Below, piece after piece: positions 47,416 through 56,588 of a stretch of DNA of 64,000 bases. The notes beneath the pieces are model-generated. The model was not told the origin of the DNA and searched no databases. It saw nothing but the letters and a program-made list of their open reading frames with translations. Where the stretch lies: NCBI GenBank assembly GCA_030603445.1, contig JAUVXU010000009.1:1-64000 (forward strand). The letters are read 5' to 3'. Numbering within the stretch: position 1 is the first letter of the stretch; every line of letters starts with the position of its first letter. The position numbers and the translations under genes were made by a program. Source of the stretch: Methanomicrobia archaeon (GTDB lineage: Archaea; Methanobacteriota_B; Thermococci; Methanofastidiosales; NM3).

Positions 47416-47532
47416 GTGGCCGGCAGCGTCTCGGGGTTCCCACCAAAGGCAGTACAACCCGAATCGCAAAGAGACTTTACTTCTGGGATCGGAACGAGAC
47501 CAGGTGTAGCCCTCTTGCTATGACCGCCGTAC
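47416..47532 (-). rRNA. rrf: 5S ribosomal RNA
   Basis: The minus strand carries the conserved 5S blocks: GGCGGTCATAGC at the 5' end, TCGTTCCGATCCCAGAAGTAAAG in loop C and helix III, and a terminal GCTGCCGGCCACT that pairs with the 5' end over seven pairs, followed by a T-rich terminator. A TATA box (TTTATAAA, near 47553-47562) lies about 25 bases before the start. No 16S, 23S or tRNA gene is adjacent, so this is an unlinked 5S gene. Ends are accurate to a few bases. Confidence 0.9.
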
Positions 47533-53921: not shown

Positions 53922-54983
53922 TTAATACTTTTTAAGTTGCACTATCTTATCTTCCAAAAATGAGTTTAATTTATCTTTTAACGTATCAAATGGGATATCA
54001 AGTTTCAAATTACTATTAAAAATTATATCATAGACTGCTTCACCAACTGCATCGTCGTGTTCTACCTCCACTACCACGGACCCAGGGAAGAAACGTTCTT
54101 TGATTATCAATTTGTCCCAATCCCCATCTGTGATAGCATACACGGGCATGCTAAAACGATACAATATGTCACCAACTATGCGCGAGGTATCATCACCCAC
54201 AGCAACTGCACCCTCGCAATGCCTTGTTAGATCGTATACATCTGCAGCACAATGATTGACAAATGCAACGCCTTTTCCCTCCTTCCTAGTGACGCGGGGG
54301 CATATTGAATCGTCACGTAATTGCTGTGTAGAACAGCACTTTGCGGTAAGTAAATTGATTTTTCCAAGTTTCTCTAATCCATGTTCCTTAACCTCTAACC
54401 CAGATGTTGTTATTATATTACCCTCATTTGTGGATATTGTAACATTCTCGGAAGTTGCCTTGCCTATTATAAGATTATTACATAACACAAAATCCCCTAC
54501 TTCACACGCCTGAAGATGGCGCGTGGTAAGATTATTTTCAAAGGAAAATAGTTTTGAAGGAGAAATAGCGTTGCCTTGTACAAATCCAAGTTCTTCCAAA
54601 GATTTTATTATTTCATCATGAAACTTTCCTTGCCACACCACATACATTCCGGTTCTGCAATCAACATGCATTACAGGGATTGAAAGTTTTGCATTATCTA
54701 AGATTATTCGAACAAAACTTTGGCCCGAGAATTCACTTTTTGGATATATGACTATCATAAGCGCGTCGCATTCAATGGATTCGCGTATAACTTTTCCCGG
54801 AAGGTCTGGTATCGAAATAACATTTTCTAAATTATGGTCATATGCGGCCGTGCGGCCCATGGTGCCCGCCTGGTAAAAACTAGCTTCAGGAATAAGGTCT
54901 ATTATTCTTTTTGCATATCCTTTATCAAAGACTTCGGGGCCATGAAAAAGAACTGCAAATTTATTCCCTATATAATGTTTCAT
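53922..54983 (-). CDS. DUF2117 family protein (methanogen-associated)
   Basis: This is a protein of about 353 residues from the ATG at 54983. VLFHGPEVFDKGYAKRII and AGTMGRTAAYDHNLE match DUF2117, an uncharacterised family known mainly from methanogens. The middle has paired Cys (KCCSTQQ, DDSICPRV, NHCAAD), and HDDAVGEAVYD lies near the end. Function unknown. It overlaps the end of the upstream TPR gene by 23 bases, so the two are expressed together. Confidence 0.72.
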   Translation of the reverse strand: MKHYIGNKFAVLFHGPEVFDKGYAKRIIDLIPEASFYQAGTMGRTAAYDHNLENVISIPDLPGKVIRESIECDALMIVIYPKSEFSGQSFVRIILDNAKLSIPVMHVDCRTGMYVVWQGKFHDEIIKSLEELGFVQGNAISPSKLFSFENNLTTRHLQACEVGDFVLCNNLIIGKATSENVTISTNEGNIITTSGLEVKEHGLEKLGKINLLTAKCCSTQQLRDDSICPRVTRKEGKGVAFVNHCAADVYDLTRHCEGAVAVGDDTSRIVGDILYRFSMPVYAITDGDWDKLIIKERFFPGSVVVEVEHDDAVGEAVYDIIFNSNLKLDIPFDTLKDKLNSFLEDKIVQLKKY

Positions 54984-55539
54984 AGAATCGCTTTCGTTCT
55001 TTTGACCACTTTGCATCATCCTTCTCTCCTTTATCGTCCCAGTACTGTGAGTTCTTACTCCAAGCTTTTTGTGGCAATTCATACTCTTTTGTAGGTTTTC
55101 CTAATGCATAACGAAGTTCTGCCGCATGCTCAAATGCGTCAGCTGCCAGAAAATAATTTCCAAGTTTTTCTTGTAAGAATCCAATATCCTCATAGCATTC
55201 TAAAGCATCCTTGAGTGCACCGTCCATCTCAAACTTGAATGCTAGTTCATAACTGAAAAAAAGGGATGTTGGGATGTCCGTCTTTTCAGAGTAATTTCGT
55301 GCTTTTTGCATCAGATCTGCACTTTTGCCGTATTCTCCTATGGAGGCAAGTAGTCTACTAGTATGGCAATATCCATATGCTGCAAGAAAGTATGAACCTT
55401 TTTTTATCTTAAGCTTAGCATAATTTTCCCAGTATTCGATTGCTTTTTCTATTTCTCCAACTTTTTCATACCTTTTCGCTATGAATTCGTATTCTCGTGC
55501 TTTATAATAAGCATCCTTGTTGACCTTGTCCCATCGCAT
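54961..55539 (-). CDS. TPR-like helical repeat protein
   Basis: This is a protein of about 192 residues made of helical pairs with TPR-like spacing: AREYEFIAKRYEKVGEIEKAIEYWENYAKL, then SYFLAAYGYCHTSRLLASIGEYGKSADLMQKA, ALECYEDIGFLQEKLGNYFLAADAFEHAAEL. Tetratricopeptide arrays bind other proteins. The ATG at 55539 is chosen over upstream in-frame codons. The close overlap with the DUF2117 gene suggests that the two proteins interact. The C-terminal 30 residues are highly charged. Confidence 0.72.
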   Translation of the reverse strand: MRWDKVNKDAYYKAREYEFIAKRYEKVGEIEKAIEYWENYAKLKIKKGSYFLAAYGYCHTSRLLASIGEYGKSADLMQKARNYSEKTDIPTSLFFSYELAFKFEMDGALKDALECYEDIGFLQEKLGNYFLAADAFEHAAELRYALGKPTKEYELPQKAWSKNSQYWDDKGEKDDAKWSKERKRFYETLYRE

Positions 55540-55893
55540 AAGAAGCCACCAACACAAGACATAAATTTGTGTTATTTTTAAAGATTATGGTATTAGATAA
55601 AATTTTTAATATATTCGCATTGAATTAGAATTTTAATAAACTAACATTAGGTTGACCGTGTCTTATCATCCTTGATATATTTTTGTGTCATTTATCATGT
55701 TTTATAGTTATTTTTTCTTTAATTTTGGGATAATTTATCAAAAAAAATAAAATATTCATATATATTTAACAATTATAAATTTATTGATATTTTAATGGTT
55801 TACATGTATATGATTATATAAAACTCAATACACAAAAATATCTAATATTTATGTCAAGAAAACTATTTATACTCTGTTTGTATATGTACTTTT

Positions 55894-56107
55894 AGCAACG
55901 GCATATGGGAGTGACAGGACAGGCTTGTACCGTTCCTGAAGCGTCGATCATATGTGTTTCATGAGCAGAAATGCAAAAAAACTGCCAGTTTCGAAAGAAA
56001 GGAAGCGGGGGACTGTTGCACGAGCCAGTACCTGAAAAGAAAAGGTGAATGTACTGAACAAACACCTTCGAATCCAACTCTGTTGGAGGTGCTGACTCAC
56101 CTTTTTT
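55894..56107 (+). ncRNA. Structured small RNA gene, unidentified
   Basis: A GC-richer island of about 210 bases lies in a 1-kb AT-rich gap without credible ORFs. TATA-like sequences at 55866-55886 and six T residues at 56102-56107 frame it on the plus strand. Helices seen: 55901-55907/55949-55955; GCAG/CTGC (55965-55968/55982-55985); TTTC-GAAA-GAAA with a GNRA loop at 55989-56000; CAGTAC/GTACTG (56026-56031/56051-56056); CACCT/AGGTG with CCAAC/GTTGG inside (56063-56091); GGTGA/TCACC before the T run (56044-56048/56097-56101). The last helix crosses the CAGTAC helix, so a pseudoknot or alternative folds are implied. I could not match it to RNase P, SRP RNA, tRNA, a box C/D RNA or a known riboswitch. 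Confidence 0.6.
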
Positions 56108-56138
56108 ATTAGGCTAGTGTTAACATATGGTTTTATAA

Positions 56139-56164
56139 TTTTAGATATTTTTATAAATCTAAAA
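56139..56164. repeat. Eight-base inverted repeat in the AT-rich gap
   Basis: TTTTAGAT and ATCTAAAA face each other across ten bases, just after the structured RNA gene. It may be a second weak terminator or a chance AT palindrome. Confidence 0.35.
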
Positions 56165-56278
56165 TATGTCTTATATTTTCCTCTTAAACTCGTTGCATTG
56201 AACAAAAGTCAATATGGGAATATTAGATTATATAATAAATTCAAAAACAAAATTTACGTCCATATAGAAGTAAAAAAA

Positions 56279-56332
56279 GGTAGGGTTATAGGAGGTATAT
56301 GTTATTATTTTATATGTTTATATTGCCCTACC
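56279..56332. repeat. GGTAGGG/CCCTACC inverted repeat
   Basis: Seven-base arms GGTAGGG (56279-56285) and CCCTACC (56326-56332) enclose 40 AT-rich bases, with A and T runs continuing the pairing outside. The rest of the gap from 56108 to 56588 shows no credible gene. The repeat could be part of a second small RNA or a relic of a mobile element; I cannot decide. Confidence 0.4.
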
Positions 56333-56588
56333 CTTTCTTGATGCCACTGCTAGCTTTTTTGTAAAATATAATAAGGTATTGTAACAATTAATATGAAATC
56401 GTGCCACTTTTATTCTTAATTAAATTAAGTTTAAGTGTTAACAATGCCCCAAAAAGTATAAGATTATATATGTATTAGCTACAGTAGTGTAATTAGACGT
56501 AGGATTTGTCATAGTCCTTAAATATTATTGGCAGATAATAATTTATATTCTCCCTATGAACAAATAACATCTCTATAAGGTGATATGT

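Follow-up and report, generated by a model that had tools for sequence, protein, structure and literature searches.

The window, by which we mean the whole stretch of 64,000 nucleotides of Methanofastidiosales DNA that was analysed, carries at positions 55893-56102 (+) a stand-alone gene of 210 nt with its own promoter. Judged by sequence comparison, it is a multicopy gene, free-standing, for a non-coding RNA that belongs to a new family, and we regard the existence of this new structured RNA family as close to certain. The likeliest mechanism, which we favor with some reserve, is that the RNA would serve as a trans-acting scaffold bound by L7Ae.

Extent, promoter and copies of the RNA gene

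On one side of the gene is a TPR-like ORF (54961-55557, −), on the other the phosphoglycerate mutase gene apgM (from 56580 or 56592, +), and the gap that separates these two measures about 1 kb. The GC content is 41-49% over positions 55850-56100 versus 11-25% in the flanks, and the gap is AT-rich outside 55890-56105. A preliminary description, made from the letters of the window, had placed a structured RNA in a 1-kb gap of AT-rich DNA, and both the GC profile and the gene map bear this out. Of the span it had given, 55894-56107, the end is exact, since the T-run occupies 56102-56107, while the start is off by one base (55893). A coding function was rejected because the overlapping ORFs (52-85 aa) clash with the compensatory changes and the indels found between copies. 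A lone hairpin at 56279-56332 (GGTAGGG...CCCTACC, −18.6 kcal/mol) lies between the RNA and apgM, beyond the stretch common to the second copy described below. The features of the gene, in order of position, are the following.

55858-55871 (+): BRE/TATA promoter element GAAAACTATTTATA, read from the sequence; sole exact match in the window
55893-56102 (+): structured RNA of about 210 nt, whole gene by model match; covariance-model match of 193.9-250.5 bits, with homologues and covariation
55895-55899 (+): P1, 5′ strand, closing the four-way junction of domain I; 100% paired, four of five pairs changed on both sides
55902-55907 (+): P2, 5′ strand (NC helix of the kink-turn); 100% paired, two pairs changed on both sides
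55908-55912 (+): kink-turn short strand, N-GA-GU; GA invariant in 10 of 10 intact copies
55916-55937 (+): P3, apical hairpin of the kink-turn arm; stem 55916-55919/55934-55937, three of four pairs changed on both sides
55941-55948 (+): kink-turn long strand, GC-(3-nt bulge GUC)-GA-U; bulge and GA invariant in 10 of 10 intact copies
55949-55954 (+): P2, 3′ strand; covariation
55957-55973 (+): P4, variable hairpin region, from single-sequence folds; weak in the window copy, strong in the G001 and G002 copies
55982-56008 (+): P5 hairpin with C-GAAA-G tetraloop (55993-55996); pairs covary
56015-56019 (+): P1, 3′ strand; covariation
56022-56033 (+): P6, 5′ strand, 12-bp helix of domain II; seven of 12 pairs changed on both sides
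56042-56068 (+): P7 hairpin, loop UACUGAA conserved; inner stem covaries and is 100% paired
56074-56086 (+): P8 hairpin; four of five pairs changed on both sides
56087-56098 (+): P6, 3′ strand; covariation
56102-56107 (+): T-run, likely terminator, from the sequence; clear in three of 10 copies

The BRE/TATA box stands about 25 nt upstream of the RNA gene, and the genome has similar elements in front of its SRP, RNase P and 5S genes. In all 10 copies listed, a TATA-like box is found about 25 nt before P1 at near-constant spacing, in agreement with the promoter proposed in the preliminary description; the terminator proposed there corresponds to the T-run, which directly follows the RNA and is clear in both copies of the source genome (G000) and in that of G004, and weaker in the others. 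The 3′ ends of the copies are mostly CACCU or CACC. Transcription would start at about 55893-55895 from the gene's own promoter and stop at the T-run.

A DNA search of 61 genomes (the source genome and 60 relatives) revealed a second copy in the same genome (G000:C36:17609-17852), 92% identical over the RNA with the promoter region included; another genus yielded a diverged copy (G004:C35). A covariance model, R1, built from these two and the window copy detected eight further copies in G001, G002 and G003 (E about 5e-16 to 3e-27), so that the genomes G000 to G004 carry 2, 3, 2, 3 and 1 copies, 11 in all, covering five of the five genomes of the family. A second model, R2, built from nine copies, returned the same 11 copies and no others at E ≤ 0.05 among 115 genomes of the class and phylum; the 110 phylum genomes outside the family gave no match, nor did the order's remaining 16 genomes even at E ≤ 1. 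One weak, insignificant partial match, to domain II only (G000:C16:3605-3665, L087; E = 0.42), is probably due to chance. When a degenerate pattern was run against 85,462 species genomes, only three contigs matched, all from Candidatus Methanofastidiosia MAG 293 R3_Bin_00208 and at positions that agree with the G003 copies. The host lineage of the RNA is Candidatus Methanofastidiosia, and the family that carries it consists of uncultured methanogens; a search of the literature on Methanofastidiosa non-coding RNAs returned nothing relevant.

Two of the G001 copies are arranged in tandem (L067 7075-8233), about 700 nt apart, each with its own promoter and with a flavodoxin-like ORF on the opposite strand between them. 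The G003b copy (L072 374-650) has long insertions in domain I, which bring it to 277 nt, and a near-identical truncated copy of it stands at the start of contig L073.

Secondary structure and covariation

The single-sequence fold of the window copy has an energy of −66 kcal/mol (z = −2.48), and 3 of 200 shuffles fold as well. Taken alone, this support is modest, suggestive and no proof. Comparison of the nine full copies supports eight helices: 96.2% of cells are standard pairs, both sides have changed in 26 of 45 pairs, and covariation scores 0.645, compared to 0.284 ± 0.023 for shuffles and at most 0.144 when partners were slid. Three of the nine copies had also supplied the model to which this alignment was fitted, which gives weight to two additional checks. 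RNAalifold, run with no structure supplied, recovered the same helices with 51 pairs, 28 of them with compensatory changes. In a tree-aware null, where substitutions were redistributed along the tree, the outcome was 59% paired, with 6.8 double-change pairs and a covariation of 0.154, and none of 1000 trials reached the observed values of 96%, 26 and 0.676. The covariation among homologues that the preliminary description had named as a check is therefore very strong (26 of 45 pairs; 0 of 1000 trials), and its suggestion of a stable functional RNA with at least six helices is supported by the homologues, which bear out eight helices. P1 illustrates the pattern, being GCAAC/GUUGC, GUAGC/GCUAC, GUGGU/GCCAC or GCUCA/UGAGC in different copies.

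As the covarying helices show, the RNA folds into two domains. In domain I, P1 closes a four-way junction from which the P2/P3 arm, the variable P4 and P5 extend; the GAAA tetraloop of P5, already noted in the preliminary description, is kept in all 10 intact copies. Domain II is a three-way junction in which the 12-bp P6 closes P7 and P8. The unpaired stretches most conserved in sequence are the P7 loop UACUGAA, near-invariant but altered in the two G003 types, and the CCUKAAA joint that links P6 to P7. We also considered whether the loops of P3 and P7 kiss, and rejected this: 6-8 complementary bases are present in three copies and 4-5 in the others, no better than in shuffles.

The conserved unpaired stretches bear on a first alternative, a trans-acting base-pairing sRNA that would pair with mRNAs or rRNA through the UACUGAA loop or the 3′ CACCU, the folded body merely stabilizing it. 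In its favor are the conservation of these stretches and the CACCU with which several copies end. Yet a two-domain structure under strong constraint exceeds what a pairing sRNA needs, and the P7 loop varies in the two G003 types. No target was identified either, and the assembly of the source genome contains no detectable 16S gene. We therefore consider this alternative unlikely, while giving it more weight than the others discussed below.

The kink-turn and the proposed particle

In all 10 intact copies, the internal loop of the P2/P3 arm is formed by a short strand N-GA-GY and a long strand RC-NYC-GA-Y and is flanked by P2 pairs. The published kink-turn layout consists of a C helix, a 3-nt bulge, two sheared G-A pairs and an NC helix (PMC4245976), and the loop, although recognized as a kink-turn only after the alignment was seen, satisfies this sequence pattern in each of the 10. 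The 3b.3n position shows varying non-Watson-Crick combinations (G/U, U/C, C/C) and both GA steps are constant; in the G004 copy the C helix is short, with one Watson-Crick pair followed by an A/C mismatch. The kink-turn, the multicopy nature of the gene and its restriction to one lineage had all been missed in the preliminary description.

Kink-turns are purely structural in some RNAs, such as the SAM-I and lysine riboswitches. The source genome has L7Ae-family genes, with candidates at G000:C33:40327-40605 and C2:94644-94922, and from the motif we infer that this kink-turn would be bound by L7Ae. Many archaeal non-coding RNAs are bound by L7Ae via kink-turns, and an L7Ae pull-down in Sulfolobus recovered C/D RNAs, RNase P, SRP and several unknown sRNAs (PMC5539422). 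The nearest precedent is found in the sister lineage, where the orphan RNAs sRkB and sRkC of P. abyssi are of similar size (211-216 nt), multicopy and equipped with a BRE/TATA of their own that precedes the 5′ end by 24 nt; their two kink-turns, in P1 and P4, were shown to bind L7Ae, they are reported to be P. abyssi-specific, and the 3′ end of an OrfB element is related to them (PMC3124441). They show that orphan L7Ae-bound RNAs of such a size exist in the sister lineage. For the 210-nt RNA described here, R2 finds no match among the 110 phylum genomes outside the family.

On the mechanism that we favor, L7Ae would grip the kink-turn, fix its sharp bend and start assembly of an RNP, in which the P7 loop, the CCUKAAA joint and the GAAA loop may be contact sites for further protein or RNA partners. 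The particle would act in trans, as a scaffold and not as a modification guide. Because the kink-turn is of the kind gripped by L7Ae, the RNA probably forms the core of an RNA-protein machine not described so far. Only tentatively do we go further and propose that this L7Ae-containing machine is confined to one Methanofastidiosales family and has a catalytic or regulatory role unlike those of RNase P, SRP or modification guides.

Genomic context and comparison with known RNAs

The dispersed and tandem copies, including the pair whose identity extends into the promoter, could also point to a mobile-element remnant or guide spread by duplication, like TnpB ωRNA or the OrfB-related sRkB and sRkC, which provide a precedent (PMC3124441); TnpB-type domains occur in four of the five genomes. 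However, the RNA never shares a contig with a TnpB hit, R2 has no match at TnpB loci, and G004 carries the RNA with no TnpB hit. No match to the RNA was found in viral contigs, phages or plasmids. Since base-pair conservation is strict and the promoter is the gene's own, we judge an origin of this kind improbable.

The genes downstream of the copies are functionally unrelated, and for 8 of 11 copies the next gene shares the strand of the RNA, whereas for the other 3 it is opposed. That neighboring genes vary among copies argues that the RNA acts in trans. A conserved gene neighborhood was looked for and rejected, sharing among copies being only loose, and no partner protein could be tied to the RNA in this way. 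Three copies have a gene encoding a protein of 150-160 aa at most about 3 kb away, its orientation not being constant (L031 6144-6599, L068 6903-7373 and L073 3155-3643; 54-55% identical), and the one protein of these that was tested has no Pfam match. A membrane-protein gene is present near two copies.

A cis-acting leader or riboswitch controlling the next gene would fit the same-strand majority, as well as the RNase III-like gene that directly follows one copy, on the same strand, in G001 (L068 7584-8345) and in G002 (L069 2559-3320). It would also fit a general likeness to the SAM-I riboswitch, where P1 closes a four-way junction and one arm carries a kink-turn. But unlike SAM-I, the 210-nt RNA has an additional domain II, its own promoter and no tie to methionine genes, and is free-standing; the Rfam SAM models gave no match at E up to 10 for the window copy or at E = 1 for five relatives. 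The T-run and then about 470 nt separate the window copy from apgM. Considering in addition that neighbors are unrelated and that the next gene is opposed in 3 of 11 copies, a leader or riboswitch role is very unlikely. The other copies of the RNA are not near an RNase III-like gene.

The Rfam library that we searched comprises 4227 families. With gathering thresholds, the only hit in the whole window was 5S rRNA, whose gene lies at 47418-47531 on the minus strand. A permissive search of 55600-56400 (E up to 10) produced only chance-level hits far below the cut-offs, and five loci of relatives had no Rfam match at E ≤ 1, so the failure to match a known family reported in the preliminary description extends to the relatives. 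Separate, full-length genes for archaeal RNase P RNA (RF00373; G000:C5:148460-148776, 110.6 bits) and archaeal SRP RNA (RF01857; G000:C41:41608-41921, 195.7 bits) are present in the same genome, and neither model hits the locus. Archaeal RNase P RNA is, like this RNA, stable, and its kink-turns are L7Ae-bound, where here the kink-turn is recognized by sequence; archaeal SRP RNA is likewise stable and free-standing and is a reported L7Ae ligand (PMC5539422), but its architecture differs. Unlike modification guides, the 210-nt RNA lacks C/D boxes, a guide pocket and an ACA tail: the kink-turn, internal to the P2/P3 arm, has no RUGAUGA or CUGA, and domain I, a multi-branch junction, offers no pocket. 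Although these known archaeal RNAs are stable and often contain kink-turns, a divergent RNase P, SRP, box C/D or H/ACA RNA is thus the least credible of the alternatives.

The fold of the RNA matches no described family in the library searched, although its mode of action may prove familiar after all. Few non-coding RNAs are large and highly structured, and when one has come to be understood, its task has usually proved to be a basic one. This one has been retained in all five family genomes examined, with one to three copies each and several diverged copies per genome, and its base pairing is strictly conserved despite strong sequence divergence between copies. The kink-turn offers, through L7Ae, an immediate handle on the rest of the particle. 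The RNA would constitute a new Rfam family and, for a methanogen lineage that has been little studied, the core of a new L7Ae RNP.
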